Assembly: GCF_964222135.1 (NCBI RefSeq)
Contig: NZ_CAXQBR010000030.1
Span: 53,460-99,514 of the forward strand
From: Euzebya sp.
GTDB taxonomy: Bacteria; Actinomycetota; Nitriliruptoria; Euzebyales; Euzebyaceae
Direction of reading: 5' to 3'
DNA: 46,055 bases
Made by a program: the position numbers and the translations under genes. Below, one piece after another: positions 16,551 through 32,023 of the stretch; positions within the stretch are counted from its first letter, which is position 1; the number at the start of each line of letters is the position of its first letter. Below the pieces are notes generated by a model. It was not told the origin of the DNA. It did no database searches and saw only the letters and a list, made by a program, of their open reading frames with translations.

Positions 16551-16552
16551 CC

Positions 16553-17469: not shown

Positions 17470-17505
17470 TGCCCCCGGCTGGCCCTCGCGGCGGCCGGGG
17501 GCATC
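17468..17505 (+). terminator. Terminator-like hairpin after the lysis operon
   Basis: Perfect 12-bp stem GATGCCCCCGGC (17468-17479) / GCCGGGGGCATC (17494-17505) with a 14-base loop, overlapping the stop codon of the last lysis gene. No U-tract follows, which is common in high-GC actinobacteria. Confidence 0.7.
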
Positions 17506-17561
17506 GTCATGTCCGCGGCTGACTTGGCCGACCCTCTCGCGGATCGGTAGCCTCCCGCCGC

Positions 17562-17601
17562 GGCGCCCGCCCTGCATCGCCCCCCCGTGCAGGCGGGCGC
17601 C
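17562..17601. terminator. Second GC-rich hairpin
   Basis: GGCGCCCGC(CC)TGCA (17562-17576) pairs with TGCA(G)GCGGGCGCC (17588-17601) with one bulged base and an 11-base loop of mostly C. It lies between the lysis operon and the zinc-ribbon gene at 17646. It may back up the first terminator or be a leader structure for the small gene. Confidence 0.5.
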
Positions 17602-17645
17602 GCCTTCAACGTCTGGACGTCGCACCCGACGGGCAGCATCCCGGC

Positions 17646-17816
17646 ATGACCAGGCCACCGCTCGTCGCGCCGCTGCTCGGCCGCTGCCCGCACTGCACCA
17701 ACCCGTTCAAGGCCTCCATCGACCTCGCGCTCGAACCTCCGCGTGGGCGCGCGTCGTGCCCGTGGTGCCGACAGACCGTCGATCTGGGCCTACCGCCAGC
17801 CGAGGCCGCTGGCTAG
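17646..17816 (+). CDS. Small zinc-ribbon protein next to the attachment site
   Basis: A 56-residue ORF (ATG 17646 to TAG 17814-17816), below the usual length cutoff. It has two CxxC pairs 27 residues apart: GRCPHCTNPF and ASCPWCRQTVDLG. This is a complete four-cysteine zinc ribbon and is very unlikely by chance. It is the last gene of the phage element before the tRNA repeat. Its function is unknown, possibly nucleic acid or protein binding. No strong ribosome site is visible. Confidence 0.62.
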   Translation: MTRPPLVAPLLGRCPHCTNPFKASIDLALEPPRGRASCPWCRQTVDLGLPPAEAAG

Positions 17817-17904
17817 GGTGCGCAGTGGCCGGTCGAATCCCCGTTTGGTCGGCTGCTCATGCGGCCCGTCGTCTTTCCCGTCGGCGGGCCGCCCTGCGTC
17901 CTGC

Positions 17905-17952
17905 GCTGCACCACGGTTTGCACCACGGACCGCTGTAACCGCGTGGTGCAGC
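17905..17952. repeat. Triple TGCACCACG repeat (two direct, one inverted)
   Basis: TGCACCACGG occurs at 17907-17916 and 17919-17928 with 12-base spacing, and its inverse CGTGGTGCA at 17942-17950. The outer pair forms an 11-bp perfect inverted repeat (GCTGCACCACG 17905-17915 / CGTGGTGCAGC 17942-17952). It ends 69 bases before the att repeat, where integrase arm-type or excisionase sites of the phage element would be expected. Confidence 0.55.
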
Positions 17953-18021
17953 CACCTCTGTCGACATCCGGGATCCCGCGTGCAGCCCGGGTCTGTAACT
18001 CCCAGATGCGGTTTCCAGATG

Positions 18022-18067
18022 ACTCATAATCGATTGGTTGCGGGTTCGAGCCCCGCCCGGCCCACAA
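18022..18067 (+). repeat. Attachment site, left copy (tRNA 3' half)
   Basis: A 46-bp sequence running from ACTCATAATC to CGGCCCACAA, identical to 30497-30542. It has the parts of a tRNA from the anticodon loop (CAT) through the T arm (GCGGG TTCGAGC CCCGC) to the acceptor 3' strand CCGGCCC-A. No matching 5' half (expected GGGCCGG acceptor strand) lies upstream, so this is a junction copy, not a tRNA gene. The intact tRNA is predicted beyond the left window edge. Confidence 0.88.
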
Positions 18068-18131
18068 AACGCCTCTGACCAGCACTTTCGCTTCACTTCG
18101 GCGAGATCGTCCGGTAGCGTACCGCTCAGAC

Positions 18132-18140
18132 AGCAGATAA
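18132..18140 (+). repeat. AGCAGATAA motif, copy 1
   Basis: AGCAGATAA followed by an A/T-rich GGACGGAATTTT stretch, 65 bases inside the left att repeat and upstream of the integrase ATG. The surrounding CCGCTCAG is shared with copy 2. Candidate arm-type site or integrase promoter element. Confidence 0.5.
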
Positions 18141-18190
18141 TGGACGGAATTTTGGACCCGTCCAGAGAGCGGAAACGGGGCGGTTCTCGG

Positions 18191-19087
18191 ATGAGATCGC
18201 GGAGCCAGATCGAGGCGTTGAGCCGGTCCTTCTCGCGGTGGCTTCGAGCCGCGAACCGGTCCGAGCGAACGGTCGAGACCTACGTGTCCTCGGTGGCCCA
18301 GCTGGTCGACTTCGCCGAGGACCGGGACCTGGATCCGCTGGCCCGCGAGACGGTCACCGAGTACCTGGCCGACCTCGCGGATCGGCGCAAGCCGGCGACG
18401 GTCGCGTTCCGGTATCGGTCGCTGCAGCAGTTCTTCAAGTGGCTCGAGGCCGAGGAGGAGGTCGAGCACTCCCCCATGGCGAAGCTGCGGCCGCCGCGGG
18501 TGCCCGAGCAGCCGGTGCCGATCCTGTCGCCGGACCAGCAGCGGGCGCTGCTGGGGACCTGTGACGGCAAGAACTTCGTCGACCGCCGCGACCACGCGAT
18601 CCTGCGGCTGTTCATCGACACGGGCATGCGGCTGGGCGAGATGACCGGCATCACGTTGCCTGACGTGGACCTGGACGTCGACAAGGTCGTGTGGGTCACG
18701 GGCAAGGGCAACTGGATGCGGGCGTGTCCGTTCGGGCGCCGGACGGGGATGGCGATCGACCGGTACCTGCGGGTGCGGGCCCGCCACCAGCACGCGCAGG
18801 AGGCCGCGCTGTGGCTCGGCGCGCAGGGCCGCGGGCCGCTCGGGTCCTCGGGCATCAACCAGATCGTCAAGCGGCGGGCGGAGCAGGCCGACATCCCCCG
18901 CCTGCACGCCCACATGTTCCGCCACACCTTCGCCGACAACATGCGCCGGGCGGGGATGGACGACGACAGCCTGATGCGCCTGGCCGGGTGGCGGTCACGC
19001 CAGATGCTGTCGCGCTACGGCGCCTCTGCCGCGGACTCCCGCGCCCGCGAGCGCTACCAGTCCATGGCCCCCGGCGACGCCCTCTGA
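18191..19087 (+). CDS. Tyrosine recombinase (site-specific integrase, XerC/D-like)
   Basis: A 298-residue integrase starting at ATG 18191 (an in-frame ATG at 18140 would add 17 residues; the open frame to 18038 runs through the att site and is not coding). Residues about 8-90 are the SAM-like core-binding domain (TVETYVSSVAQLVDFAEDRD). The catalytic domain shows Arg147 (TGMRLGEMTG), a Lys in the VTGKGNWMR hairpin, H241-x-x-R244 (HMFRHTF), Trp267 in the place of the second His (GWRSRQ) and nucleophile Tyr276 (LSRYG). It would integrate the element at the adjacent tRNA sequence. Copies of AGCAGATAA lie on both sides of the gene. Confidence 0.93.
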   Translation: MRSRSQIEALSRSFSRWLRAANRSERTVETYVSSVAQLVDFAEDRDLDPLARETVTEYLADLADRRKPATVAFRYRSLQQFFKWLEAEEEVEHSPMAKLRPPRVPEQPVPILSPDQQRALLGTCDGKNFVDRRDHAILRLFIDTGMRLGEMTGITLPDVDLDVDKVVWVTGKGNWMRACPFGRRTGMAIDRYLRVRARHQHAQEAALWLGAQGRGPLGSSGINQIVKRRAEQADIPRLHAHMFRHTFADNMRRAGMDDDSLMRLAGWRSRQMLSRYGASAADSRARERYQSMAPGDAL

Positions 19088-19258
19088 TCACCGCCCCGTC
19101 CCGCCGCGACACGAGCACACCGCTCAGCAGATAACAGTCGGAAAAACCTGACACAAGCGGCCCCTCTCCCCCGTCTACCAGGACACACGTCTTGCACAGG
19201 CGGACGGCAGGGAGGCAGCAGGTCGGATGTCAGGGACCCAACAGACCGGGTGCGGCCG
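19088..19258 (+). other. Integrase-relaxase intergenic region, candidate oriT
   Basis: 171 bases upstream of the relaxase. It holds AGCAGATAA copy 2 (19126-19134), then an inverted repeat CCTGACA (19147-19153) / TGTCAGG (19228-19234). The origin of transfer of MobF elements commonly lies next to the relaxase gene, so this is the best place to look. No nic site can be named from sequence alone. Confidence 0.35.
19126..19134 (+). repeat. AGCAGATAA motif, copy 2
   Basis: AGCAGATAA followed by CAGTCGGAAAAA, 39 bases after the integrase stop and preceded by CCGCTC as in copy 1. Together with copies at 18132 and 30422 it forms a set located at the two element ends. Confidence 0.5.
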
Positions 19259-22200
19259 GTGACGGTGTCGATGCGGGTGATGTCCGCCGGCGCCGGCTAC
19301 CGGTACCTCCGCGATTCGGTTGCCGTGGGCGACGCCGTCCGTGAGCCCGGACGGGGGCTGGCGGACTACTACACCGCCGAGGGCTGTCCGCCGGGCCGTT
19401 GGCTCGGCTCAGGACTGCCGGGCCTGGGCAGCGGAGAGCTGCGAGCGGGTGTGGTGGTCACCGAGGAGCAGGTGGCGCGCCTGCTGGGTCAGGGCCGCGA
19501 TCCGCTCACAGGCGATCCGTTGGGACGCGCTTACCCCCAGTACCGGTCGCGGGCGGAGCGGATCGCCGACCGCGTCGCCGAGCTCGACCCGAACCTGGAC
19601 GACGACGCCCGCGCAGCTGCAGTCGAGCGGATCGAGCATGAGGAGTCGCAACGGCGTGGCCGGCGTGCGGTGGCCGGGTTCGACCTGACCTTCAGCGTCC
19701 CCAAGTCGGTCTCAGTGCTGTGGGCCCTCGCCGACCCCGACACCCGCGCCCAGGTGGTCGAAGCCCACCACGCCGCGATCGTCGACGTGATCGACCTGCT
19801 CGAGCGGGAGGTCGCCGCCACCCGGATGGGCGCCTCCGGACCGGACGGTGCGGTCGCCCAGGTCCCGGTGGCTGGGGTGATCGCGGCGGCGTTCGACCAC
19901 TACGACTCCCGCGCCGGCGACCCGCAGCTGCACACCCACGTCGTGGTCGCGAACAAGGCCAAGACGGTCCTCGACGGGCGCTGGCGGGCGCTGGACGGCC
20001 GGCCGGTGCATGCGGCGATGGTGGCGCTGTCCGAGCACTACAACGCCGTCCTCGCCGACCTACTCACCGACACCCTCGGCGTCGTCTGGACCCAGCGCGA
20101 CCGCGGCGCCGATCGCAACCCGGCGTGGGAGATCGCCGGTGTGCCCAGGGAGCTCCTCGACGTCTTCTCGTCCCGCACCACCGACATCCAGGTTGCGAAG
20201 GACGAGCTGATCGCCGAGTACGTCGCCACCCACGGCCACCAGCCGTCGGCGACGACCGTCTTGAAGCTGCGCCAGCAGGCCACGCTGGCGACCCGGCCGG
20301 ACAAGACCCTGCACTCCCTCGCCGACCTCACCGGCCGCTGGCGGACAACAGCGGAGTCGCGCGGCCACTCCCCCGCCGACTGGCTGACCCCGGTCCTGGG
20401 CGGCAGGTCGCAGCAACGGCTGCGCGCGGGCGACCTGACGCCGGCGACCGTCGAGGGGATCGCCGCGACCGTGGTCGAGATGGTGGGTGAGCGTCGTTCG
20501 ACGTGGCGCAGATGGAACCTGCACGCCGAAGCCACCCGCCAGCTCATGGGCATCCGCTTCGCATCAGTGCACGACCGCGAGACCATCCTCGCGAGCGTCG
20601 TGCACGCGGCGGAGCGTGCGTCGGTGCAACTCACCCCGCCCGAGCTCGCGTCGGTCCCGGTGGAGCTGCGCCGTGAAGACGGCACCAGCATGTTGCGCCC
20701 GCGGCACTCAGAGGTGTTCACCTCCGCCGAGCTCCTCGCGGCCGAGGACCGTCTGCTCCAGCTATCCAGGGCGACGCACGGACCGCAGGTCCCGGCGGTC
20801 ACGATCGCGTACCACGGCCAGGACCTCGGCAACGATCAGCTCGAGGCCCTCGTGAGCATCGCGACCTCCGGGCGCGTCTTGGACGTTTTGATCGGTCCTG
20901 CAGGTGCGGGCAAGACCACCGCGATGCGCGCCCTCCGCGCCGCGTGGACCCACCTCTACGGCCCTGGGACGGTAGTCGGCCTGGCGCCATCGGCGGCGGC
21001 CGCCGAGGTCCTGGCCGCCGACCTCGAGATCGACACCGAGACCACCGCGAAGTGGCTCCACGAGCTCCAGGCCGGCAAGGCCCGCTTGCATGCCGGGCAG
21101 CTGGTGATCGTCGACGAAGCCTCCCTCGCCGGCACCCACACCCTGCACCGCATCGCCACCGCCACAGCCGGCGCGGACGCCAAGCTGCTCCTCGTCGGCG
21201 ACCCCGCCCAGCTCGCCGCGGTCGATGCCGGCGGCGCGTTCAGGTTGCTCGCGACCGACCGTGACGATGTCGCCGAGCTCACCGACGTCCGACGCTTCCA
21301 CCACGACTGGGAGAAGCACGCGTCCCTGCAGCTGCGCGACGGCAATCCCGCCGTGATCGACACCTACGACCGACAGGGACGCCTGATGGACGGTTACCTC
21401 GACGCGATGCTCGACGCCGCCTACGACGCCTGGCGAGCAGACCTCGCCGCGGGCAAGACCAGCCTCCTCATTGCCCCCACCCGGGAGCACGTGACCGCCC
21501 TCAACCAGCGTGCGCATGCTGACCGGGTCGCCGCCGGCGACGTCGACGCTGCAGTGGTCGTGCGACTACGCGACCACACGTTCGCCGGGGTCGGCGACGT
21601 CATCGTGATGCGCCGCAACCACCGCCAGCTCACTAACACGTCAGGCCGCTGGGTCCGCAACGGCGACCGCTGGACCGTCTCCTCGATCTACCCCGATGGC
21701 ACCCTCACCGTCCGCGGAAACGGCGGCACCGTCCAGCTGCCGGCCGAGTACGTCGCCGACCACGTCGAACTGGGCTACGCCGTCAGCGCCCACCGTGCCC
21801 AGGGCGCCACCGTCGACACCGCCCACGCCATCGTCACGCCCGCGATGACCCGCGAGACCCTCTACGTCGCCATGACCCGCGGCCGGGTCTCGAACACCGC
21901 TTACACCGCCACCGCCGACGCCGACCTCGAGCTTCATCAGGACGACGGCGAAGACGCCACGGGTCGGCATGTGCTGGCCGGCGTGCTCGCTCGCGTGGGC
22001 GCGGAACAGTCCGCCCACGAGACCCTCCGGGAGGAGCAGGACCGCTGGGGCACCATCGCCCAGCTGGCGGCGGAGTACGACACGATCGCCGCCGCCGCCC
22101 AACACGACCGCTGGACCCAACTGATCCGAGCGTCGGGTCTCACCGACGACCAGGCCAACCAAGTCCTCACCTCCGAGGCCCTCGGTGCCCTGTCAGCCGC

Positions 22201-22771
22201 GCTGCGTACCGCCGACGCCCACCACCTCAACCCCGAAGAACTGCTCCCAAAGCTCCTTGACGACCGCGACCTCGATGACGCCGACGACATCGCCGCCGTC
22301 CTGCACCACCGCGTCACCACCGCCACGACCCGCCTCGCCGCGACCCGGCGCCGGCCACCGGACCTGATCGCGGGTCTCATCCCCAAGGCCACCGGTCCCA
22401 TGACCCCCGACACGCGCACCGCCCTGGACGAACGCCGGCAACTCATCGAGCGGCGAGCCCGCAGCCTCGTCGAGACCGCGACCGCGCAACGCGAGCCATG
22501 GCTCCGCCACCTCGGATCCGTACCTCAGAACTGGCATAGCCGCGACCGGTGGGTCCGCACAGCGACCACCGTCGCCGCGTACCGCGACCGCTACCGCATC
22601 ACCACCACCGACCCGCTCGGCCCCGACGCGGCCAACGAGCTGCAGCGTGCCGATGCCGCCCGAGCCCGCGCGGCCATGAACCGACTGCGCCTGGTCCGCG
22701 CCTTGGACCCGGGTACCGCGACGAGTCGGCCAGTTCAGCGAGACTCACCCAGGCTCGGTCGGTCATTGTGA
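19259..22771 (+). CDS. MobF (TrwC/TraI-like) conjugative relaxase-helicase
   Basis: A 1170-residue protein; GTG 19259 (MTVSMRVMSAG) fits the actinobacterial TrwC start better than GTG 19250. The relaxase domain (about 1-300) has the tyrosine pair Y37-Y38 (LADYYTAEG) then PPGRWLGSGLPGLG, FDLTFSVPKSVSVLW, and the three metal-binding histidines H214, H225 and H227 (FDHYDSR, QLHTHVVVANKAK) with the same 11- and 2-residue spacing as TrwC. The helicase half has Walker A GPAGAGKTT (about 546-554), Walker B VIVDEAS (D619-E620), GDPAQL, and AVSAHRAQGATVD with YVAMTRGR near 855-885. It nicks oriT and unwinds the transferred strand. No coupling protein or T4SS gene accompanies it. Confidence 0.93.
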   Translation: MTVSMRVMSAGAGYRYLRDSVAVGDAVREPGRGLADYYTAEGCPPGRWLGSGLPGLGSGELRAGVVVTEEQVARLLGQGRDPLTGDPLGRAYPQYRSRAERIADRVAELDPNLDDDARAAAVERIEHEESQRRGRRAVAGFDLTFSVPKSVSVLWALADPDTRAQVVEAHHAAIVDVIDLLEREVAATRMGASGPDGAVAQVPVAGVIAAAFDHYDSRAGDPQLHTHVVVANKAKTVLDGRWRALDGRPVHAAMVALSEHYNAVLADLLTDTLGVVWTQRDRGADRNPAWEIAGVPRELLDVFSSRTTDIQVAKDELIAEYVATHGHQPSATTVLKLRQQATLATRPDKTLHSLADLTGRWRTTAESRGHSPADWLTPVLGGRSQQRLRAGDLTPATVEGIAATVVEMVGERRSTWRRWNLHAEATRQLMGIRFASVHDRETILASVVHAAERASVQLTPPELASVPVELRREDGTSMLRPRHSEVFTSAELLAAEDRLLQLSRATHGPQVPAVTIAYHGQDLGNDQLEALVSIATSGRVLDVLIGPAGAGKTTAMRALRAAWTHLYGPGTVVGLAPSAAAAEVLAADLEIDTETTAKWLHELQAGKARLHAGQLVIVDEASLAGTHTLHRIATATAGADAKLLLVGDPAQLAAVDAGGAFRLLATDRDDVAELTDVRRFHHDWEKHASLQLRDGNPAVIDTYDRQGRLMDGYLDAMLDAAYDAWRADLAAGKTSLLIAPTREHVTALNQRAHADRVAAGDVDAAVVVRLRDHTFAGVGDVIVMRRNHRQLTNTSGRWVRNGDRWTVSSIYPDGTLTVRGNGGTVQLPAEYVADHVELGYAVSAHRAQGATVDTAHAIVTPAMTRETLYVAMTRGRVSNTAYTATADADLELHQDDGEDATGRHVLAGVLARVGAEQSAHETLREEQDRWGTIAQLAAEYDTIAAAAQHDRWTQLIRASGLTDDQANQVLTSEALGALSAALRTADAHHLNPEELLPKLLDDRDLDDADDIAAVLHHRVTTATTRLAATRRRPPDLIAGLIPKATGPMTPDTRTALDERRQLIERRARSLVETATAQREPWLRHLGSVPQNWHSRDRWVRTATTVAAYRDRYRITTTDPLGPDAANELQRADAARARAAMNRLRLVRALDPGTATSRPVQRDSPRLGRSL

Positions 22772-23062
22772 TAGCGGGGGATCTCCTAGAGGCCAGGCAT
22801 GCGCGCAACTCGCCCTATCTGCTCAATCCCACAAGGCCGTGCCGGGCCAGGGCGCTGTGGAGCCTTCTGGAGCGGAACTGGCTTCCCCTTGCGGGCGTGA
22901 ACGATGCAGCCGGCCACGGCAAGGCCGTGTCGGGCGACGGCGGTCTCGATGGGATGACGGCGTGGTGCTCGCGGGGGGTCCGTGTGGCGATGACGCTCGG
23001 GACGACGGTGCGGTGGTGACGACTCGACGGCTGGCCGGCAAATAGGCTACGCCCCTGCGGCC
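22772..23062. other. Gap without recognisable gene
   Basis: About 290 bases between the relaxase stop and the IS3 relic. Open frames here have no ribosome site and look non-protein-like. A GATCTCCTAG-type patch right after the stop resembles GATCCCC after the relaxase relic at 26282-26298, consistent with shared ancestry of the two relaxase 3' flanks. I see no RNA gene. Confidence 0.5.
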
Positions 23063-23307
23063 GACAACTCCGCCATGGGGAGCTTCTTCGCCCACCTTCA
23101 ACACAACGTCTTGGGACCGTGGCCACTGGGCACTCGGGACGACCTGCGCCTCGCATCCTGGTCTGGACCGAGCGGACTGACGACCGACGACACCGCCAAG
23201 CGCGGCTCGGCCGGTTGACCCCTATCGAGTACGAGTCGATCATGCCCACACCCGCCTGCGGCGGCCTAACCCATCTGCCGGGCGGAACGTGCACCAGTAC
23301 CTATTGA
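23063..23307 (+). pseudogene. IS3-family transposase (OrfB) 3' relic
   Basis: Decayed end of an IS3-type DDE integrase. The first frame reads DNSAMGSFFAHLQHNVLG, matching the DNAAMESFFALLQ region of IS3 OrfB, then TRDDLRLASW, where functional copies have TREELRLAIVTWIE. After a frameshift the other frame reads HRQARLGRLTPIEYESIM, the standard C-terminal motif. Start, DDE motif and OrfA are missing. It lies directly upstream of the secreted CWB2 gene, so an old IS insertion may have accompanied or provided expression for it. Confidence 0.8.
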
Positions 23308-23370
23308 CAATCGGGAGAGGTGGTGGTTGGGTCCGGATGGCGGTAGGAACTTCGTGAAGGGTGGGGCGGT

Positions 23371-25269
23371 ATGGCGGGCGGGCATCGCGCAGTTTTCTGC
23401 GTCTCCTTGGCGTTCATCTTGAGCATGTTCTGGGTCCCTGCGGGTGCACAGGCTGGGCGGTCATCCATTATCGGAGATGATGCAACGTCTCCCGCGGACC
23501 AGGCGATCGCCATCAGCCGGGCCACCTTTGTCGCAGCCGACGAAGTAGTCATCGCACGAGCCGACGTCTTTGCAGATGCTTTGGCCTCGGGAGGGGCCCA
23601 GGTCGGCTCCCGTCCGCTCCTGGCAACACCCGGCGAGGCACTACCAGCTTCCGTGGCTCAAGAGATACGGAGACTTGAAGCCTCATCCATCATAATCCTT
23701 GGAGGCCCCGACGCCGTCTCCGAGGAGATCGAACAGGACCTTCAAGCGCTCGACGTATCCGTGCGCCGCATAGCGGGCCCGTCCCGAATCGAGACGGCCA
23801 CTGCGCTTGCGTCTGAACTCTTACCGCGCGCAACAACGGCCATACTTGTCCGCGCCTTTGGTGCGGGTAGCCAAGCGTACGTTGACTCCATCGCAGCTGG
23901 CTCGCTAGCAGCTCACAGTTCCTCACCAGTCATCTTCACGGACACGGATGAGCTCAGCGCGCCCACTGCTGAGTTCTTGCAGTCGTCCGAGATTGAGCAT
24001 GTAGTCATCGTGGGAGGAACGGACTCCATCTCGACTGAGGTGGAGAAGACACTCCAGTCCTTGGACTTGGACACCACCCGTCTCGCGGGCGCTGAGAGGG
24101 CTGGGACGGCCACTGCTATCGCCAGCCACGTGGGCTTTAACGACGCTACGAGCGCTCTTCTAGTGGACGGCAGCGACACCCCCGGTGCCTGGTTGCCCGC
24201 CTTCGCGGCTGCCGGCTTCTCCGCTGTACGAAACGTGCCAGTCCTGCTCACCACTCCGGGGGGGCTCCCAGCCGCCACAGAGGCATACCTCTCAGAGCAC
24301 GCATTTGAACTCGTGACCTGCATGCCGCCGGTCACAGTGGCCGCGTGCACTAGTGCTACGGGTCAGGATCCAGTCCCCCACTCGACGGTGGATCCGGAGC
24401 ATGCTCTGCTGGTTGAGGCGACAGATGCCGCAACTGCGGGAGAGGACCTCAGTCTGTCCGAGGAGGAAAGGATCCAACTGTCGGAGGCGACGGCGGTCGA
24501 CCACTACAGGTTCTTGGTGGATGGCACCGTCGTGGGGCTGCAAGTCCCAGCGGAGGCCGCGTCCCGTTTCTCCGGGCAGTATGAGTTTGGCATCCCCGGA
24601 GTGATCACTTGTTACCCTGGCTACCAGCCCTCACCACCCAGCCTCGCGGGCAATTCTGACATCTCGCCTATCGATCTGCTGCCCGACGTGGATCTCACTG
24701 CCGACACTATATGTGTAATCAATCCCGAAGTGCGTCAAGCCCTCAATGAGTTGTTGACCGCACAGGTACCACTCGACGAGGCACTCAGACTGGTTGCGGC
24801 AAGTATTCCGACTCAAGTCGATCCCGACAACGTTGGCGGCGCATTCGACGCCTTCGAGTCTGGCTCGGGAGGCAGCGGATGCATCACTCGTGACCTCACG
24901 GTGTCGGCATATGCCACAGCCGGGTTCCGCGTCTGGGACTTCACCAACGTGTCCAGCGTGTGCTTCAACGGCTCCACCTTCACGTCCGACAGGTCAGAGT
25001 CATATCCGAATGTGACCACGCCAGGGTCTCTGGGCAGTTGGGAGTACGATTTCGGCAACGAGAACGAAGAGAACCTGGATGCTACGGTCTCCCATGAGCA
25101 AATGGGGCGGTTTATCCAGTGCATTGACGTCAAGGTCATTCCCAACGTTCCGTTGGGCCAGTTGTGTCCTCGCAGTAGTACCGCGGAGGTCGACTTCCTC
25201 TATGTCTCTCTTAGCGGCGTCGACACGGGGTACATCTGGCATGCTGTAGGCATCGTGGTCCCCACGTAG
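23371..25269 (+). CDS. Secreted protein with N-terminal cell-wall-binding repeat 2 (CWB2) array
   Basis: A 632-residue exported protein. The signal peptide is about 1-28 (VFCVSLAFILSMFWVPAGAQA). Residues about 40-315 hold three CWB2 units, each with a FADAL or SIAAG segment, an IIILGGPDAVSEEI or VVIVGGTDSISTEV hairpin and an IAGPSRIETATALA or LAGAERAGTATAIA tail. Residues about 330-632 are a novel region with scattered cysteines (VITCYPGY, DTICVIN, GSGCITRDL, SSVCFNG, FIQCIDV, GQLCPRS), perhaps disulphide-bonded. CWB2 domains bind secondary wall polymers in clostridial S-layers. GC content and codon use (ATA, AGA, TTA) are visibly lower than in all neighbours, indicating recent import. GTGGGGCGG precedes ATG 23371. 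Confidence 0.84.
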   Translation: MAGGHRAVFCVSLAFILSMFWVPAGAQAGRSSIIGDDATSPADQAIAISRATFVAADEVVIARADVFADALASGGAQVGSRPLLATPGEALPASVAQEIRRLEASSIIILGGPDAVSEEIEQDLQALDVSVRRIAGPSRIETATALASELLPRATTAILVRAFGAGSQAYVDSIAAGSLAAHSSSPVIFTDTDELSAPTAEFLQSSEIEHVVIVGGTDSISTEVEKTLQSLDLDTTRLAGAERAGTATAIASHVGFNDATSALLVDGSDTPGAWLPAFAAAGFSAVRNVPVLLTTPGGLPAATEAYLSEHAFELVTCMPPVTVAACTSATGQDPVPHSTVDPEHALLVEATDAATAGEDLSLSEEERIQLSEATAVDHYRFLVDGTVVGLQVPAEAASRFSGQYEFGIPGVITCYPGYQPSPPSLAGNSDISPIDLLPDVDLTADTICVINPEVRQALNELLTAQVPLDEALRLVAASIPTQVDPDNVGGAFDAFESGSGGSGCITRDLTVSAYATAGFRVWDFTNVSSVCFNGSTFTSDRSESYPNVTTPGSLGSWEYDFGNENEENLDATVSHEQMGRFIQCIDVKVIPNVPLGQLCPRSSTAEVDFLYVSLSGVDTGYIWHAVGIVVPT

Positions 25270-25340
25270 ACCGGCGCGCACGCGCCAGCTAGCCCTGCGC
25301 ACACGGCATCACAAAGCCGTCGCGTACAGTGGTCGTCTAC

Positions 25341-25598
25341 ATGAACACAGGTGCCGCCCCCTCCCATACGCCTCCAGGCTTGTTGGCCATGATCTTCGGC
25401 GTCTTGTCATTCGTCGTGCTTCCGGTGGTGGGTGGCGCATTGGCTCTGTTCTTCGCCCGCAGGTCACGGCTGGAAGGTGAATCCCGACATGGTGCGGACT
25501 ACACGTATGGACGGGTCGGCCAGGTGCTGGGGGTAGCGAACCTGGTTCTTACCGCCCTCTTCATCGGGTTCTTCATCCTCTCCGGCGTGCGTGCGTGA
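25341..25598 (+). CDS. Small DUF4190-like membrane protein
   Basis: An 85-residue protein with two hydrophobic segments (about 14-36, LLAMIFGVLSFVVLPVVGGALAL in part, and 59-80, VLGVANLVLTALFIGFFIL) around a basic loop (ARRSRLEG). Gly at the turn of the first helix and a GQVLGVANLVL second helix match the DUF4190 pattern of actinobacterial membrane proteins. The start is ATG 25341; GTG 25329 is an alternative. It lies 71 bases behind the CWB2 gene and shares its less GC-rich character, so it may have travelled with it. Confidence 0.62.
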   Translation: MNTGAAPSHTPPGLLAMIFGVLSFVVLPVVGGALALFFARRSRLEGESRHGADYTYGRVGQVLGVANLVLTALFIGFFILSGVRA

Positions 25599-25679
25599 GG
25601 GCACCAGGTCAAACTAGGGAGTGGGGTTAGCGCTGCGCTGGCCGACCTCGACCTCAGCACGAAGTTCGGGTCCCCCGCT

Positions 25680-25925
25680 ACCGAGCGGAGGTCGCCGAGA
25701 TCTTCAGCCGAACGACATCGCCTTCACGTACCAGCCGATCGTGACCCGTCACGCCGCCGAGGCCGCCCCGGACACCTACGCAGGCCTGTGGCTGGACGGC
25801 CACGCCGGTGGTGGGCTTCGCATCGCCTTCACCACCGATGCCGATCGCCATGACAATCGGTCGTCCAGAGCCTGGCGGAGTTCAGCGCCGTCCGCGCCCG
25901 TGTCGGTTGCCCGCCTGCCCCCAGA
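25680..25925 (+). pseudogene. Frameshifted relic of an actinobacterial secreted-protein domain
   Basis: One frame reads NDIAFTYQPIVTRHAAEAAP then TYAGLWLDGHAGGGLRIAFT. A shifted frame continues VVQSLAEFSAVRARVGCPP. The AGLW-[LI]D ... hydrophobic-AF pattern resembles a domain found near the N-terminus of actinobacterial secreted peptidase-like proteins, but I do not recognise it with certainty. Start codon and downstream part are missing and the frame is broken. It directly abuts the relaxase relic. Confidence 0.5.
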
Positions 25926-25929
25926 AGCG

Positions 25930-26282
25930 CAGCGCCCTGAACGAACGCCAACAGCTCATCGAACAGGAGCCCGTCGCCTCGTCGAGACCGCCATGGCCAA
26001 GCACGAACCGTGGCTCCGCTACCTCGGAGTCGTACCCAGACCTGACACGGCCGCGACCGGTGGTTCCGGACGGCGACCACCATCGCCGCCTACCGCGACC
26101 GCCACAACATCGCCTCCAACGATCGACTCAGCACGCCGCCGACCATGGGCGCACAACGGACCGATGTGGCCTACGCCGACAAGGCCCTCAACCAGCTGCG
26201 CCTCCATCGTTACCCCCGATCACGCGGCGAGTCGAGCACGACCCATCGGCCGGATACACCCGGCCTCGGTCGACCGTTCTGA
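25930..26282 (+). pseudogene. Relaxase (MobF) C-terminal relic
   Basis: This stretch is a diverged, frameshifted copy of the last part of the relaxase gene (compare 22405-22771). Shared segments include ALNERQQLIEQ (relaxase ALDERRQLIERR), LVETAMAKHEPWLRYLGVVP (LVETATAQREPWLRHLGSVP), then RTATTIAAYRDRHN-type text in another frame, and NQLRLHR near the end. The TGA at 26280-26282 is followed by GGGGGATCCCC, like the region after the intact gene. It is evidence of an earlier MobF element at the same locus or of a partial duplication. Confidence 0.82.
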
Positions 26283-26386
26283 GATCGGGGGATCCCCCAT
26301 GGCGCCGGACGAGGCGGAGTCTCCGTGCGGGACCGCCCGCAATTCACGTCCACGGTCTGGGTGTCCGTCGCGCATGCATCTGCCGT

Positions 26387-26416
26387 CTAGGGCCTCCCGG
26401 CCACGGGTCGCCCTAG
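26387..26416. terminator. Hairpin downstream of the LysM gene
   Basis: CTAGGGC (26387-26393) pairs with GCCCTAG (26410-26416) around a 16-base loop. It lies 140 bases beyond the 3' end of the reverse-strand LysM gene and after the relaxase relic. A weak terminator is possible; no U-tract. The rest of 26283-26555 shows no gene. Confidence 0.35.
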
Positions 26417-26555
26417 ATGAGCGAGTACCGGAGGCGGCCGCGATCGCACGATGCGCCTTACCAACAAGACGAACCCGCGCTGCGTGAGGGACGGGACCCG
26501 CGGCGGCAGGCCCAGGGCAAACGCGATCCGAGATCGGATCCCCCGCCGTGGCGGT

Positions 26556-27968
26556 CTACGGCTCCCAAAGGTCCATGGTCACCGCCGTGACCGCACCGTC
26601 CTCGTCGATGAAGAGGTCGACGGTGAACCATTCGGTGCACGACGACGTGTCCTCTGGCTGGATCCACAGGCGTCGCATGTCCTCCAAGCCCTCCGGCGGC
26701 GGAACAGGCGGTGAGGCGCAGTGGGGATGTGTACCCGCGCCGAAGGCCAACAAGAAGGAAGTGTCGGCGATGAGTTCCAAGGGGTTGAACGGACCGGTGT
26801 AGGCGCGGAATCCCTCCGCCTCGATGGACCAGACCGGCCCGGAGACCTCCTGGGAGGTGAAGGTGGCGCTGGGTGGTCGGTCAGCGAGGTGAAGAGAGAC
26901 CGAGTCGGCCCAGCGCAGCACTGTCGGTCGGCTCGGGAAGTGGGCGAACTGGACGAATGCGTCGAGCAAAGCCCGTTCGTCCTCGCCCAGGGCGGCCTGC
27001 TCCTCCTCACCCGGCGTGGTGCCGGCGGTGTCCGCGGGCGCTGTCGTGGACGACTGGGTGGCGCCCTGCGGGCATCCGGGGATGGTGAGCTCCCGCCCTG
27101 TGGTCAGTGGGTTGTTCCCATTCAGACCGTTGGCCTGGGCGATGACGCCGAACCTGCTGGGATCGCCGTACACGGCCTCGGCGATGCTGGCCAGCGTGTC
27201 GCCGGGCTGGATCAGGTAGGTGCGGTCGGGCGCCTCACACTGCTGGTCCGGCGGTGTCGCGAACTCGGTCGGCTGTCGCTGGGTAGAGGCGGCGCAGACC
27301 GCGACGCGCTCGTCGGCCCGGACGCTGCGTCCGTGGTCTGCATACGGCGTGTCGTTTGCGTCGGTCCAGATGCTCGCACGGCGCGCGACGTCGTTGGCGG
27401 CGTAGAGGTACACCTCATCGGGGCGCTCCCACGGCCGCCGAGCCGGCGACTCCAAGGCCATCGGCGCCAACGTGGCATCACGATCCGGGGACACCCACAC
27501 CGCGATGCCACCGGGGCCCAATCCCAAGACGGGAGCGGCGGTCCACCACGTCGGCGTCTCATCCGCCGGACCCTGCACGGACAGCTGCCACACCGGCCCG
27601 GCGAGCACCCAACCGTCGGCCAACCCAGTCTCGATCGCCTCCTGCATGCCCACACCGACCGGGACGTCGACGGTGCCTCGACGCGCCGCGGCATCCACCT
27701 GCTCACAGGCCTCGTCGACTCCGTCCACCGCTGGGACCCTCCCTGAGGGGGACGGTAGTGGGGGCGGTCCGAGGAGCACCTCGTCACTGCCGGGTTGCAG
27801 CGCCACCACCACACCGGCACCGACCATGAGGACCACGAGGGCCGACACGACCCCCTGAACGCGTCGACGGCGACGCCGAAGCCGATCCGCACGCCCGTGC
27901 ACATCGGCCATCGAGAACCCGGCGGTGCGGGGTTCGCCGTCCCACAGAGCCTCACCGAGATCAGGCAT
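26556..27968 (-). CDS. Transmembrane LysM protein, probable anti-sigma factor partner
   Basis: A 470-residue protein starting at ATG 27968, overlapping the sigma factor stop by 8 bases. A short N-terminal cytoplasmic part (about 1-35, MPDLGEALWDGEPRTAGF) is followed by an arginine-rich stop (DRLRRRRRRV), one membrane helix (about 38-58, GVVSALVVLMVGAGVVVAL) and a large outside region. The latter has a LysM module at about 250-296 (TYLIQPGDTLASIAEAVYGD, RFGVIAQANGL, GRELTIP) and an uncharacterised C-terminal domain (about 320-470). Pairing with an ECF sigma factor and this topology suggest an anti-sigma protein sensing the wall. There is no zinc anti-sigma motif (HxxxCxxC), so the inhibitory role is inferred. 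Confidence 0.68.
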   Translation of the reverse strand: MPDLGEALWDGEPRTAGFSMADVHGRADRLRRRRRRVQGVVSALVVLMVGAGVVVALQPGSDEVLLGPPPLPSPSGRVPAVDGVDEACEQVDAAARRGTVDVPVGVGMQEAIETGLADGWVLAGPVWQLSVQGPADETPTWWTAAPVLGLGPGGIAVWVSPDRDATLAPMALESPARRPWERPDEVYLYAANDVARRASIWTDANDTPYADHGRSVRADERVAVCAASTQRQPTEFATPPDQQCEAPDRTYLIQPGDTLASIAEAVYGDPSRFGVIAQANGLNGNNPLTTGRELTIPGCPQGATQSSTTAPADTAGTTPGEEEQAALGEDERALLDAFVQFAHFPSRPTVLRWADSVSLHLADRPPSATFTSQEVSGPVWSIEAEGFRAYTGPFNPLELIADTSFLLAFGAGTHPHCASPPVPPPEGLEDMRRLWIQPEDTSSCTEWFTVDLFIDEDGAVTAVTMDLWEP

Positions 27969-28458
27969 CCAAGACCACCTCCTCCAGTCCCACATCCCGC
28001 AACGTGGCCAGCGCCTTGTAGGTCAGCGACTTGACCGTGCCTTCCGCACACCCCATCGCCACGGCGGTGTCCGCAACCGAGAGGTCAGCCAGGTAGCGGC
28101 ACGCCACCACCTGGCGATAGCGGGGCGGCAGCGCGGCAACCGCCTCGCGTACCACGACCGCGGTCGTCGTCTGGGGCCCGTGATCGACCGATGCGTCCCC
28201 CGTCGCTCCGTGGCGGGCATACGCCCGGCGCTCCGCTCCTCGGCGTCGCCACCGGGATCGGGCCAGGTTGAAGGCCACTCGGTACACCCACGCCTCCGGA
28301 CGATCCCGCGCACGCACCCGAGACCAGTCCACCAGCGCCCGGGCCATCGCCTCCTGCGCCAACTCCTCAGCGACGCCACGATCCCCGACGTAGAGCGTCA
28401 CGGCAGCGACCAGCGGCCGCGCCAACGGCGCCAGTACCGCATCCGGCGTCTCCTCCAT
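27961..28458 (-). CDS. ECF RNA polymerase sigma factor
   Basis: A 165-residue group IV sigma factor. ATG 28458 (MEETPDAVL) is chosen; upstream codons overlap the broken toxin. Region 2 is recognisable (AEELAQEAMARALVDWSRV, PEAWVYRVAFNLARSRWRRR) and region 4 has LPPRYRQVVACRYLADLS then a helix-turn-helix VADTAVAMGCAEGTVKSLTYKA. It resembles the small actinobacterial SigE-like ECFs. It would direct polymerase to a few promoters when released by the overlapping LysM membrane protein. The partner genes overlap and are surely co-transcribed. Confidence 0.9.
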   Translation of the reverse strand: MEETPDAVLAPLARPLVAAVTLYVGDRGVAEELAQEAMARALVDWSRVRARDRPEAWVYRVAFNLARSRWRRRGAERRAYARHGATGDASVDHGPQTTTAVVVREAVAALPPRYRQVVACRYLADLSVADTAVAMGCAEGTVKSLTYKALATLRDVGLEEVVLDA

Positions 28459-28502
28459 CACCCCATACGATGCACAGACCCCATCAGGAGGTTCACCCAC
28501 AC

Positions 28503-29108
28503 ATTAGAGCGTGCCTGCCGAGCAGTAAGACCGAGGTCCGCGGCGTCCCGCAGGGTGCCGGTCCGGGTCGTGCTGGTCAGCGATCTCGTTGTATGCCCGC
28601 CACTTGCCGACGATCGCCGGCAACAGGTTGGGGATGAGCATGTTCTCGGACCGGCCGTCGTAGCTGATGACCGCTTCCTCGGCATGTGAAAGCAGGTACC
28701 GTCTCCCCCGGGACTTCGAGGGTGTGGGCGGTGGATGGTTCGGTGTGGTCCGTTGAACTTGTCTGGCGCCAACAGATCGACCACCGCGCCATCGCAGTCG
28801 CGGATGAACTGGTGCACGACCTGACCAACCGCCACGTGGGGGCGACCCCGTGGGCGCAGTTGAAGCTGATCGACCAGGGCGTGGGCGAACCGTTCCGTCG
28901 CGTTGGCGAGGGCCACCTGGACATCGACGATCACATCCAGGTCAGTGGTGGTGCGGCGCGGTGTCGCGCCGGCGTGGTGGAGGTGGGCCTGCACCATGAG
29001 CCCACCGATGAGCACCCATCGCGGGAGGTCGTGCCCGGCCATGTCCAGCAGGAGGTTCCACGCGGCGTGTTCTGCCCCTCCCATGGGTGGGACCTCGATC
29101 TCGATCAC
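28503..29108 (-). pseudogene. AbiEii-like nucleotidyltransferase toxin, frameshifted
   Basis: The 5' half is intact: GTG 29108 overlaps the antitoxin stop (GTGA). LIGGLMVQAHLHHAG then TTTDLDVIVDVQVALA forms the GG...D-x-D nucleotidyltransferase core, and DCDGAVVDLLAPDKF the third strand. Near 28730 the frame changes: LEVPGETVPAF lies in a second frame and EEAVISYDGRSENMLIPNLL with PAIVGKWRAYNEIAD in a third, ending at TAA 28503-28505. Read together these make a normal AbiEii/nucleotidyltransferase protein of about 200 residues, so at least two indels inactivated it. Known type IV toxins of this family modify tRNA; this copy should be inert unless the indels are sequencing errors. Confidence 0.78.
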
Positions 29109-29860
29109 GGCGGCGGTCCCATGGACGAAGGGACGTTCGGCCAAGCGACCGACGCGGTGTCGATCGCGCCGAGCAGGACGCGGATGGCCGATACCACTCG
29201 ACCGTCGGCGCGACCGGCGTCGATCGCGTGGTCGAGCAGGTCGGCGGCGACTGCCAGCCGGGGGGACACCTCCAAGCCGTCTAGGAGGGCTGAGTCGTCG
29301 ACAACACGGAGCAGGTGCGTGCCCGTCTCGGAGTCGCGGATCGGCACCGCCGCACGCGCGGCGGTCAAGTCGTCGGCCGCCAGGTAGCCATCCACGTCCT
29401 TGTCGCCGGTCAACCCGTGACCATGGATGCCAGCGCCGGCAACGCCCGACGGGACGACGAGCTCGCGCAACCGGTCAACGCGCGACGGGTGCACGGTCAC
29501 GCGATGGACACAGGCCCGATCTCGGACGACGGCGAGCAGCCGCGCTGGCGCAGCCGAGTCGAGGCGCCGGCGCACCCGGTGACGGGACTTCGGGTCGAGC
29601 GCGTCGAGCAGGCGGTCGTCACCGTCCAGCGCCCGCATGGCGGCCCAGGCGAGTCGGGAGTTCCAGGGGCGGGTCGATGCGTCGGCGATCCCGAGCTCGT
29701 TCATCACCGCACGGCGGGCGACCGAGTCGACGTCGACGAGCCAGCCACTGCCCGTGCGGACGGCGGTGAGCTGTCCCGCCTGGGCGAGCGCGCGGACGCG
29801 GCGTGGCGCGACACCGAGTCGGTCGGCGGCTTCGCTGACGGTCAGCAGTCGCTGGGACAT
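29105..29860 (-). CDS. HTH antitoxin/repressor partner of the AbiE-like system
   Basis: A 251-residue protein starting at ATG 29860 (MSQRLLTVSEAADRLGVAPR). Residues 5-50 are an excisionase/MerR-type helix-turn-helix (LTVSEAADRLGVAPRRVRAL, then a wing TAVRTGSGWLVD). The remaining 200 residues are alpha/beta with no known catalytic motif (HRVRRRLDSAAPARLLAVVR, GYLAADDLTAARAAVPIR, LAVAADLLDHAIDAG). HTH proteins of this type precede AbiEii-like nucleotidyltransferases in actinobacteria and act as antitoxin and autorepressor. The toxin gene overlaps its 3' end but is broken, so this is an orphaned antitoxin. An 8-bp inverted repeat lies just upstream of the start. Confidence 0.72.
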   Translation of the reverse strand: MSQRLLTVSEAADRLGVAPRRVRALAQAGQLTAVRTGSGWLVDVDSVARRAVMNELGIADASTRPWNSRLAWAAMRALDGDDRLLDALDPKSRHRVRRRLDSAAPARLLAVVRDRACVHRVTVHPSRVDRLRELVVPSGVAGAGIHGHGLTGDKDVDGYLAADDLTAARAAVPIRDSETGTHLLRVVDDSALLDGLEVSPRLAVAADLLDHAIDAGRADGRVVSAIRVLLGAIDTASVAWPNVPSSMGPPP

Positions 29861-29861
29861 A

Positions 29862-29895
29862 CCCAACAGCCTACCGGATGCGGAATACTGTTGGG
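29862..29895 (-). promoter_or_regulatory. Candidate autoregulatory operator of the AbiE-like operon
   Basis: CCCAACAG (29862-29869) and CTGTTGGG (29888-29895) form a perfect 8-bp inverted repeat with an 18-base spacer. Its right end on the reverse strand lies 1 base before the antitoxin ATG, so the mRNA is probably leaderless or nearly so and the promoter sits inside the repeat. Such placement is typical for autorepressed antitoxin operons. Confidence 0.6.
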
Positions 29896-30001
29896 CATGG
29901 CGCACGACTGGTAGACGAATCCGGGCCAGATCGGCTGACACAGACGGGCCTCCCGCCCCGTCTGACTCCTCGCTCGCACCCATTCCGACGAGGAGGACCC
30001 T

Positions 30002-30079
30002 GTGAACCCGCACCTGTACGACGACATGGCCCGACCGCGCCCACTCCCCCTGCCCCGCACCGGGACGGCGGCTGCCTGA
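30002..30079 (+). CDS. 25-residue leader peptide upstream of a conserved small ORF
   Basis: GTG 30002 is preceded by a strong GAGGAGGACC ribosome site (29989-29998). The frame encodes MNPHLYDDMARPRP and a Pro/Thr/Ala-rich end, stopping at TGA 30077-30079, which overlaps the ATG of the next gene (TGATG). The good ribosome site belongs to this peptide, not to the next gene, implying that translation of the leader drives translation of the downstream ORF. Confidence 0.55.
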   Translation: MNPHLYDDMARPRPLPLPRTGTAAA

Positions 30080-30357
30080 TGGGACTCACGCCCCAGCAGC
30101 GTTCGATCCGTGCCCGGCTCGCCGCGCACGCCCTGCACGCCAAGACCGATGGCCGCGCCCACACCCGTCCGGCCAGGGACGGGTTCATGCGCCGCTTCGA
30201 GGACCAGGTCGACCCTGACCGCCAGCTCCCCGAGGAGGAGCGGCAGCGACGGGCACAGCACGCCCTGACGGCGCACATGACGATGCTCGCCCTCCGCTCG
30301 GCGAAGGCCCGGCGGAAGGACGCCGGGACGACCCGGAAGCCCTCTGGCGGCGCCTGA
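30079..30357 (+). CDS. Conserved small actinobacterial protein of unknown function
   Basis: A 92-residue protein (MGLTPQQRSIRARLAAHALH, AHTRPARDGFMRRFEDQVDP, LPEEERQRRAQHALTAHM, LRSAKARRK). The pattern of an N-terminal T-P-x-Q-R-x-x-R-A motif, a central R-x-x-F-x-x-x-V-D-P and a C-terminal E-E-R-x-R-R-A-x-x-A segment is a small family common near mobile elements in actinobacteria. It is all-helical and highly charged, perhaps nucleic-acid binding. The start overlaps the leader peptide stop. It is the last gene before the right att repeat. Confidence 0.7.
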   Translation: MGLTPQQRSIRARLAAHALHAKTDGRAHTRPARDGFMRRFEDQVDPDRQLPEEERQRRAQHALTAHMTMLALRSAKARRKDAGTTRKPSGGA

Positions 30358-30418
30358 GCGGTACACTCGAAAACCCTGGAAACGGGGACAGCAATCTATT
30401 GAATTTCAGAGGGGCCTC

Positions 30419-30453
30419 GCGAGCAGATAACACTCGAAGAATTGTCTGCTCGC
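30419..30453 (+). repeat. AGCAGATAA motif copy 3 within a hairpin at the right end
   Basis: AGCAGATAA at 30422-30430 is followed by CACTCGAAGAAT, like copies 1 and 2. Here it is part of a 9-bp perfect inverted repeat, GCGAGCAGA (30419-30427) / TCTGCTCGC (30445-30453). It lies 44 bases before the right att repeat. With the copies near the left end, it fits integrase arm-type or excisionase sites. Confidence 0.55.
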
Positions 30454-30496
30454 CAACTGCAAAACCGCAGGTCGGCACACCGTTGAAACCGATTTA

Positions 30497-30542
30497 ACTC
30501 ATAATCGATTGGTTGCGGGTTCGAGCCCCGCCCGGCCCACAA
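30497..30542 (+). repeat. Attachment site, right copy (tRNA 3' half)
   Basis: Identical over 46 bp to 18022-18067. The 5' flank (CCGATTTA) differs from the left copy and does not complete a tRNA. CGATT-TAACTCAT-AATCG forms a small perfect 5-bp stem across the junction, unlike a true anticodon arm. Confidence 0.88.
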
Positions 30543-30582
30543 CACGCGCCTGGCCACTTCGCGAAGGTTGTGCGCCGCCCAA

Positions 30583-30666
30583 CCCATCGGAGGGGACCGT
30601 CGAGAACTACGGCGACGATGGCGTTCCGGTACCGGTCGCTGCCGTCGCCCTTGCGCTTGAGGGCTA
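30583..30666 (+). pseudogene. Integrase N-terminal relic beyond the right att
   Basis: GACCGTCGAGAACTACGG matches the integrase sequence at 18266-18283 (T-V-E-T-Y region), then skips about 107 bases and continues GGCGTTCCGGTACCGGTCGCTGC, matching 18402-18424 (A-F-R-Y-R-S-L). The position relative to att 30497-30542 mirrors that of the intact integrase relative to att 18022-18067. A third element with the same integrase family evidently once began here. The protease gene's 3' end overlaps the last bases. Confidence 0.75.
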
Positions 30667-31044
30667 TCGGGGGGTCACGTCGAAGCGCAACTCCGCGGCC
30701 TGGATGGTGACCGTGAAGAAGCGGAAGAAGGACTGATGACCCAGGACGCCCCAGCGCTCCAACATCGAGTGGTCGGAGAACCCGACTTCTGCCTCCCAGG
30801 ACAGGCCGGCCGCACGTAGCGGGACGGTCGCGAATCGGGCGACCAGCCCTTGACCGATGCTCACCTGGGTCGGCTCGATCTCGGCCAACTCGATCCCGGC
30901 GACGCGCGCGACCCAGTGCGGCATCAGGGTGTTGATCGCGCCGCTGTCCACGAGCGCGACGGCCGATATGTCACCGCCGACCTGGACCGGCAGCAGCGGA
31001 CGGGGATGTGCCCCGCCGGGCTGTGGCGTGTACTCGACCCTCAT
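30664..31044 (-). CDS. Retropepsin-like aspartyl protease
   Basis: A 126-residue protein with the retroviral-type aspartate motif VALVDSGAINTLMP (D33-S34-G35) and a second hydrophobic GVLGHQSFFRFF segment, which in this fold is the hydrophobic-G turn near the C-terminus. The remaining strands (LLPVQVGGDISA, QVSIGQGLVARFATVPLRAA) match single-domain aspartyl proteases, which are active as dimers. Serine follows Asp where eukaryotic enzymes have Thr; DSG is usual in bacterial members. The start ATG overlaps the upstream stop (ATGA). Substrate unknown. Confidence 0.83.
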   Translation of the reverse strand: MRVEYTPQPGGAHPRPLLPVQVGGDISAVALVDSGAINTLMPHWVARVAGIELAEIEPTQVSIGQGLVARFATVPLRAAGLSWEAEVGFSDHSMLERWGVLGHQSFFRFFTVTIQAAELRFDVTPR

Positions 31045-31679
31045 ACGACCAGGTCGATGTCAGCTTCGCGGCCGGACGAGGGGATGCGTCGTACGACGGC
31101 CTGCCGACCGCTCTCCCGGACTTGCGCGATGACGTCGTCGGGGGAGTCCCCGACTGCGATGACGTCCTCACCTGCCTGGGCGATCCACTTGCCGGCCAGA
31201 TCGTCAACTGCGTCTGAGGGGATGGCGCTGGCGACGTCCTCCGTGTCGTGGAGGCGTGTTCCCGCAGCAGCCACCTCCTGCCACCACCGTGCCACCACGG
31301 GGTCCATCCGGTAGTGCATGATCCCCTCCCGAGCGTCCTGCCAGTTCTCGATGGGCCACGTCTTCTTCGTGAACAGCTCCCGGGCGACGCGCGAGAGGCG
31401 TGCGTGCTCATTCGCCTGCGCGCGCTCGCTGAGGCCGCTGCGGGCCACGAGCTCGGCGAAGGTGACGTCCTCGGGCGAACGCGCCGCGCAGAGCTCGAAG
31501 AGGGCTCTCACCCCCGCCAGGTGCGCCACCCGAGGCCAGAGCAGCGCCAGCATGTCGGCCCTCCAGCTCCCCTGGCCGTGGACGTGGACGACGTCCGCCC
31601 GGGAGCTCAGCAGCTCTCGCAGCTCCTGAGTCAGCCGCTCGATCTCATCCAACCGACGTTCGACTTGGCCGGAGTTCAC
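31041..31679 (-). CDS. Winged-helix regulator-like protein with DUF5678-like C-terminus
   Basis: A 212-residue protein with GTG start 31679 (VNSGQVERRLDEIERLTQEL); the longer open frame upstream is rich in Arg/His and not protein-like. Residues 5-30 form a coiled coil. Residues about 50-140 are helical and resemble a winged helix (LFELCAARSPEDVTFAELVA, RSGLSERAQANEHARLSRV). The last 55 residues (LAGKWIAQAGEDVIAVGDSP, VIAQVRESGRQAVVRRIPSS) resemble DUF5678, which commonly sits next to retropepsin-like protease genes. It overlaps the protease by ATGA, so they act together, perhaps as regulator and protease. Confidence 0.65.
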   Translation of the reverse strand: MNSGQVERRLDEIERLTQELRELLSSRADVVHVHGQGSWRADMLALLWPRVAHLAGVRALFELCAARSPEDVTFAELVARSGLSERAQANEHARLSRVARELFTKKTWPIENWQDAREGIMHYRMDPVVARWWQEVAAAGTRLHDTEDVASAIPSDAVDDLAGKWIAQAGEDVIAVGDSPDDVIAQVRESGRQAVVRRIPSSGREADIDLVV

Positions 31680-31706
31680 GCGGAGGCCCCTTCGACGAGA
31701 CGGGGT

Positions 31707-31924: not shown

Positions 31925-32023
31925 CGTTGCGATCGCCCGGGCCGGGCGGTGCCCCCCGGAGGCATGCAATCTCCAACCACACGCGCAACGGGCCGGGATA
32001 CGACCGCGTGAGAGGGCCGCAAC

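Follow-up and report, generated by a model that had tools for sequence, protein, structure and literature searches.

The 46,055-nucleotide stretch of Euzebya sp. DNA analyzed here (the window; C30:53460-99514 of draft genome G000, its right edge being the end of contig C30, which has 99,514 bases) belongs, in our view with high confidence, to a tandem accretion array: a prophage, a mobilizable element (hereafter, the island) and a decayed third element are lined up at one tRNA-Ile2(CAU) gene. The arrangement is a new and well-resolved example of tandem accretion at a tRNA gene, which has already been described. Comparisons were made with three relatives from the same genus, G001, G002 and G003, the last being Euzebya pacifica (5 kb of its second replicon exactly matches NZ_CP031166.1). 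The features that carry this reading, with attachment sites abbreviated as att, are as follows.

1-18021, + strand: rightmost 18 kb of a prophage of 43.6 kb, with tape measure, tail, tail spike and endolysin genes, from PHROGs matches and the tRNA-to-att distance
17907-17950: phage-type arm-like repeats TGCACCAC at 17907 (+), 17919 (+) and 17943 (-), with a matching trio at the other prophage end
18022-18067, + strand: att copy 2 (tRNA 3' half), prophage/island junction, from repeat comparison, own-genome search and pattern counts
18132-18140, + strand: island arm-like repeat AGCAGATAA, left end, from the repeat count; its distance to the core equals that in G002
18140-19087, + strand: island tyrosine integrase, 315 residues, full length (PF00589, E 1.3e-28)
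19126-19134, + strand: island repeat AGCAGATAA behind the integrase gene, from the repeat count
19250-22771, + strand: MobF/TrwC relaxase-helicase, 1173 residues (NF041492, 247.8 bits with a cut-off of 100; PF08751, E 4.8e-92)
30422-30430, + strand: island arm-like repeat AGCAGATAA, right end, from the repeat count and the offset comparison with G002
30497-30542, + strand: att copy 3 (tRNA 3' half), island/relic junction, from repeat comparison, own-genome search and pattern counts
30548-30642, + strand: integrase relic, internally deleted, at the left end of a third element, from alignment to the island integrase and chained-score controls
30664-46055, no strand assigned: segment not collinear with the tRNA-icd interval of the three relatives, which holds an arabinose operon and reaches the contig end

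The original prediction placed two identical 46-bp tRNA 3' halves at the flanks of an element with an integrase and a relaxase, and these are present as direct copies at 18022-18067 and 30497-30542 with both genes between them. Each core begins a 60-bp repeat, the two window copies of which share 93% identity, and a 44-bp core pattern with up to 3 mismatches matched twice in the window and in none of 100 shuffles. ARAGORN detected no tRNA gene in the window, so both copies are without a 5' half, as had also been proposed. When the genome itself was searched with the left copy, three places were returned, namely both window copies and C30:27874-27918; the three cores are all on the + strand and mark the first three element boundaries as direct repeats. 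An intact tRNA gene with a CAT anticodon had been expected left of the window, bordering the prophage, and was located at C30:27845-27920 (L004 7846-7921; ARAGORN), 25.5 kb left of the window; it contains the third core copy and has the phage integrase gene beside it.

The 43,561 bp between this tRNA and the left att copy are filled by the prophage, whose tyrosine integrase (386 residues) begins 68 bp past the last tRNA base. Helicase, terminase, portal, capsid, tail sheath, tape measure, tail spike and endolysin genes were recognized with PHROGs (9 of the 10 scanned open reading frames matched), and the integrase, packaging, capsid, tail and lysis genes all lie between the two att sites. Tail and lysis genes extend to 16.3 kb and the right-end repeats to 17.95 kb, almost to 18022, in agreement with the proposal that a prophage ends at the left copy. 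Among sequenced phages, identities reached 27-31% for the integrase (best 12 of 191 records) and 33-37% for the terminase (best 8 of 1699 records), all records being below 60% in both searches. ARAGORN detected no additional, phage-borne tRNA in L005, in the window, or in that part of L004 which lies beyond the target. Compared with the tRNA-dependent lysogeny outlined in the passages of PMC10865867 on that subject, where the core is short, the host tRNA is not rebuilt and the phage bears a tRNA, the core here is 44-46 bp long and the tRNA is intact.

We regard tRNA-Ile2(CAU) as the most likely identity of the target. A CTCATAA-loop pattern matched 3 genes in every one of the relatives G001, G002 and G003 (a displaced half in G002 being set aside): an initiator, an elongator-like gene whose acceptor reads GGCGGCG, and the target, whose acceptor reads GGGCCGG; in the draft G000 the initiator and the target alone were found among genes with this loop. 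ARAGORN labels the target as Met, and this label together with the CAT anticodon would make it an elongator tRNA-Met, a reading that we consider improbable given that each of the three relatives has a separate initiator and an elongator-like GGCGGCG gene in addition to the target, and that the TilS-type family PF01171 scores above cut-off in all four genomes. We also take the target to be like E. coli ileX and assume the C4-G69/C5-G68 rule, for which a literature search returned no match. The rebuilt tRNA-Ile2 in G000 ends with an encoded CCA (L004 7919-7921), and the same gene in G001, G002 and G003 is without it; the encoded CCA probably came with the phage.

Each of the two complete elements has repeats of its own near its ends. 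TGCACCAC occurs 7 times in the prophage, 6 of these within 130 bp of its ends, when a first-order Markov model gives a mean of 1.6 and a maximum of 5 in 100 runs; the 9-mer AGCAGATAA occurs 3 times in 46 kb, always inside the island, against 0.01 expected. The phage and island integrases share 27% identity over 248 residues. Judging from these sequences, two integrases of separate lineages, each with its own arm-like repeats, use one core. As an independent check, the homologous island that G002 carries at this tRNA (integrase 61% identical, relaxase 57% over 1127 residues; 12,780 bp from core to core) has another arm-like repeat, AGCAACAAAC, present as 2 copies in 40 kb; its offsets to the cores, 67 at the left end and 75 at the right, equal those of AGCAGATAA in G000. 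The idea that all three elements use related integrases is supported for the island and the relic and not for the phage, given the low identity of its integrase and its own end repeats.

Right of copy 3, a deleted integrase fragment had been postulated in the same relative position as the intact gene. The fragment is real: positions 30548-30611 match the island integrase at 18222-18284 (69%) and 30610-30642 match it at 18393-18425 (91%), in the same order, and the chained score of 49 was reached by none of 2000 random 220-bp segments of the window (best 40), segments overlapping the integrase and relic regions being excluded. Its position is not exactly the same, as the approximately 150 bp between the repeat and the matching part of the integrase in the island have shrunk to 5 bp at the relic. 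This end is predicted to be unable to excise alone because the stretch holding the left arm repeat is gone. The prophage and the island each have their own full-length integrase, and the third element has an integrase fragment only. No further significant pieces were detected to the right of the relic with either the integrase (E at least 0.078) or the relaxase (E at least 0.16 beyond 26273), and a search for the outer end of this element with the core on contig C32 (up to 3 mismatches in 24 bases) gave 0 matches.

The relatives serve as a reference for what lies beyond the tRNA. G001 and G003 show synteny on the left flank and have one core copy, which means an unoccupied site. The housekeeping gene icd, single in each of the four genomes, encodes a monomeric NADP-isocitrate dehydrogenase (identified through the G000 homolog) and lies 3.1 kb beyond the tRNA in G001, 4.6 kb in G003, and about 2.06 kb after the second core in G002. 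In G000, icd and tRNA-Asn are on C32, the end of icd being 4.8 kb from the end of that contig; the excess in G000 is thus 71.6 kb on C30, possibly plus 4.8 kb on C32, against a few kb and at most one island in the relatives. An empty site joining the left flank of the prophage to 30543 was anticipated and is not seen in the single-copy genomes G001 and G003, in which other DNA follows the tRNA, toward icd and tRNA-Asn. A role for 30543 onward as the collinear ancestral right flank was rejected, its sole likeness to the relatives' interval being a reversed DUF1059-like gene. This gene (43206-43466; family score just under cut-off) shares 65% identity over 81 residues with a gene situated 0.7-0.9 kb behind the G003 tRNA in the opposite orientation. 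The arabinose operon at 32024-41743, which comprises genes for a binding protein, an ABC transporter, a kinase, AraD and AraA, falls within the G000 excess (about 32-41.7 kb), and araA was found in G000 alone among the four genomes. The segment 30664-46055 may belong to the third element. A separate observation in G002 is a tyrosine recombinase-like match 5' of the tRNA (L067, about 15901-16584; G002:C1:2851900-2852583).

Several points weigh against the array as drawn here. Both TGCACCAC and AGCAGATAA were chosen by eye after reading the sequence and counted afterwards; that the arm-like repeats are integrase-binding sites is a prediction from position and repetition, and the third AGCAGATAA copy sits 1 kb inside the island. 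The right end of the array is outside the assembly, with C30 ending together with the window and icd located on C32. The DUF1059-like gene may represent an additional copy or else rearranged old flank, and attribution of the arabinose operon to the third element is tentative. The relic is 95 bp long, and when the island integrase was compared by tblastn with 22.8-46 kb, it was represented by 13 residues at E 0.23, ranking under two chance hits (0.078 and 0.18). Its best single match, weaker evidence than the chain, was equalled by 4 of 2000 controls. These last features, together with the small gene near 43.3 kb that resembles a reversed gene behind the tRNA in G003, would suit a different account, in which the relic resembles the integrase by chance, the DNA from 30543 onward belongs to the ordinary chromosome and there is no third element. 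We find this account unlikely: it has to face two collinear matches in a chain unequalled by 2000 controls, a 60-bp repeat that continues 14 bp beyond its identical part into island-like sequence (the first 14 bp past the copy 3 repeat agree with the island left end at 10 of 14), and, apart from the small gene, no collinear match in the tRNA-icd interval of the three relatives, in none of which araA was found.

In the mechanism that we propose, each element would have been inserted by its own tyrosine integrase, through recombination between the tRNA 3' half of the element and the tRNA or an existing att copy, with a crossover presumably within the anticodon region; an incoming element would rebuild the tRNA and push the old 3' half outward. 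The integrases would distinguish the ends of identical cores by means of the arm repeats, TGCACCAC for the phage and AGCAGATAA for the island. Excision of prophage and island as a block would be disfavoured, because at the outer pair of sites, the tRNA copy and copy 3, neither integrase would meet both of its own arm repeats, and we infer from the sequence that each complete element can still excise separately. The order of entry of prophage and island cannot be recovered: as the cores are identical, the same map results whether the newcomer used the tRNA or the distal att of the resident. Of the suggestion that elements stack toward the tRNA, the probable greater age of the relic is retained, the decayed third member being likely the oldest, and the order of the other two is unreadable. 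Likewise, the claim that at least three elements used this one tRNA locus is upheld as far as serial site-specific integration is concerned, with related integrases supported for island and relic alone. A joint entry of prophage and island, or an origin of the repeats in homologous recombination or in the duplication of a single att-bearing element, is very improbable, for although identical cores permit homologous exchange and a duplicated relaxase tail fragment inside the island tells of some rearrangement, prophage and island differ in integrase, end repeats and gene content, and G002 has a homologous island without a prophage at the same tRNA.

Comparison with known systems was made with the parts of the literature that bear on tandem integration. 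The review PMC5704250 (sections on tandems) describes accretion of IMEs, ICEs and CIMEs with prophages at tRNA 3' ends, including integrative mobilizable elements next to prophages and decayed elements, whose integrases are distant relatives with similar specificity; there, as proposed here, new entry takes place at the att site of the resident. The tandem worked through in those sections is from Streptococcus agalactiae; the present one, in Euzebya, is made up of a prophage of 43.6 kb, a MobF island and a relic. The tandem prophages of Mycobacterium abscessus T36, also an actinobacterium, are two head-to-tail units formed via an integrase at the resident attL/attR according to the account of that locus in PMC9934374; both units are prophages there, whereas here one is a mobilizable island and a decayed third member is added. 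The tRNA-Ile2-CAT gene is a known actinophage attB, that of mycobacteriophage Yoshi (attB-13; PMC10865867, entries on attB sites), with which our locus shares the tRNA species, a core of 43/45 bp and the rebuilding of the tRNA upon integration, but in those entries the phage is listed singly and in another host. Islander tandem arrays (PMC4383910, part on tandems) have the same anticodon-centred crossover class; unlike them, the third member here has no working integrase, and the Islander rule would resolve two islands. A literature search, with subscription journals mostly outside its scope, returned no paper pairing Euzebya with a prophage and nothing on a tandem prophage or integrative and conjugative element at the same tRNA gene in Actinobacteria; a looser one had no Euzebya paper in the top 10 of 6,544. 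Three identical cores with different end repeats offer a natural setting for studying how tyrosine integrases pick the right pair of sites, for which the single-island G002 and the single-copy G001 and G003 are natural controls. The locus also shows that Euzebya and its class have a lineage of MobF mobilizable islands and a landing site in recurrent use.

Across that class, the core pattern, which is strict and matched at all in 14 of 66 genomes, occurs more than once in three of them, with three copies in G000 and two each in G002 and G032. G040 has displaced halves of its own allele at two more places, each on a different contig (L146 1930-1991 and L147 4192-4241), with integrase-like matches near both; they are probably another, broken-up array. 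Displaced 3' halves were thus counted in at least 4 of 61 class genomes. The element of G032, a distant relative (L071 4.2-16.1 kb), lies at the same tRNA and encodes a 407-residue integrase, a resolvase and a DNA methyltransferase; its integrase is 27% identical to the phage integrase over 183 residues and has no significant match to the island integrase. A stray tRNA 5' half was also seen about 200 bp upstream of the intact G032 target gene. These data can be joined in a wider, tentative reading that we hold to be possible and rather doubtful: tRNA-Ile2(CAU) would be a class-wide landing pad where separate integrase lineages converged on the same 44-bp core, a per-integrase arm-repeat code would keep the array separately mobile, its letters drifting between relatives with the core distances fixed, and the decayed third member would have brought the arabinose operon, fixed once integrase and arms were lost (cargo capture by decay).

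The island measures 12.5 kb (18022-30542), between att copies 2 and 3. In addition to the integrase and relaxase genes, it contains the following features.

23371-25269, + strand: cargo, protein with cell-wall-binding repeats (CWB2; PF04122)
25876-26273, + strand: remnant of a second relaxase, covering its C-terminal end and containing a stop; the DNA repeats are 80% identical
26556-27995, - strand: cargo, LysM-domain protein (PF01476)
27961-28500, - strand: cargo, ECF-type sigma factor (PF08281, PF04542)
29105-30013, - strand: excisionase-like helix-turn-helix protein, candidate directionality factor or regulator (TIGR01764 above cut-off)
29878-30357, + strand: small conserved island protein (67% over 78 residues in G002; matches in L072 and L073)

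A coupling protein or mating apparatus was not found with Pfam in the 17 open reading frames of the island that were scanned out of a longer list; since it has an integrase and a relaxase, and conjugation machinery was not found among the scanned frames, it is best called an integrative mobilizable element. The second relaxase tail fragment suggests that the island itself may be composite. The four top-ranked plasmid relatives of the relaxase (Microbacterium, Glutamicibacter and Paenarthrobacter) are 53-55% identical to it, and among the best 5000 records at least one has a place with 60-80% identity. Three loci share the small island protein, each with a related integrase. When genome contigs were searched with the island integrase, one relative was recovered, in Lentzea atacamensis (38%). 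Among the six best relatives of the island integrase, five have a tRNA gene no more than 150 bp from the aligned start (one Ile2, two Val and two Arg), both Arg genes being oriented opposite to the integrase; for the sixth, which is a partial match, the 19-kb stretch contains no tRNA.

Two short motifs were recorded besides. The 14-mer AAACCGCAGGTCAG was looked up in viral contigs: among the 83 matches listed, 2 come after a tRNA T-arm, and an integrase-like match lies within 3 kb of 2; the motif has a longer conserved context, and the neighbouring genes are mixed (75 of 143 neighbouring open reading frames scanned). AAACCGCAGGTCA is found 3-6 bp past tRNA ends, in 4 of 43 cases exactly over 11 bases and in 6 of 43 with at most 1 mismatch (tRNAs counted after removal of duplicates); its sites include L004 7925-7935, window positions 30463-30473, and places downstream of tRNA-Val(tac), Gly(tcc) and His in G000. 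In the window alone AAACCGCAGGTCA showed no enrichment. An integrase-like match lies within 3 kb of 4 of the 6 tRNAs followed by AAACCGCAGGTCA, one of whose flanks ends at 414 bp with its contig, compared with 3 of the 37 others (Fisher p 0.0037).
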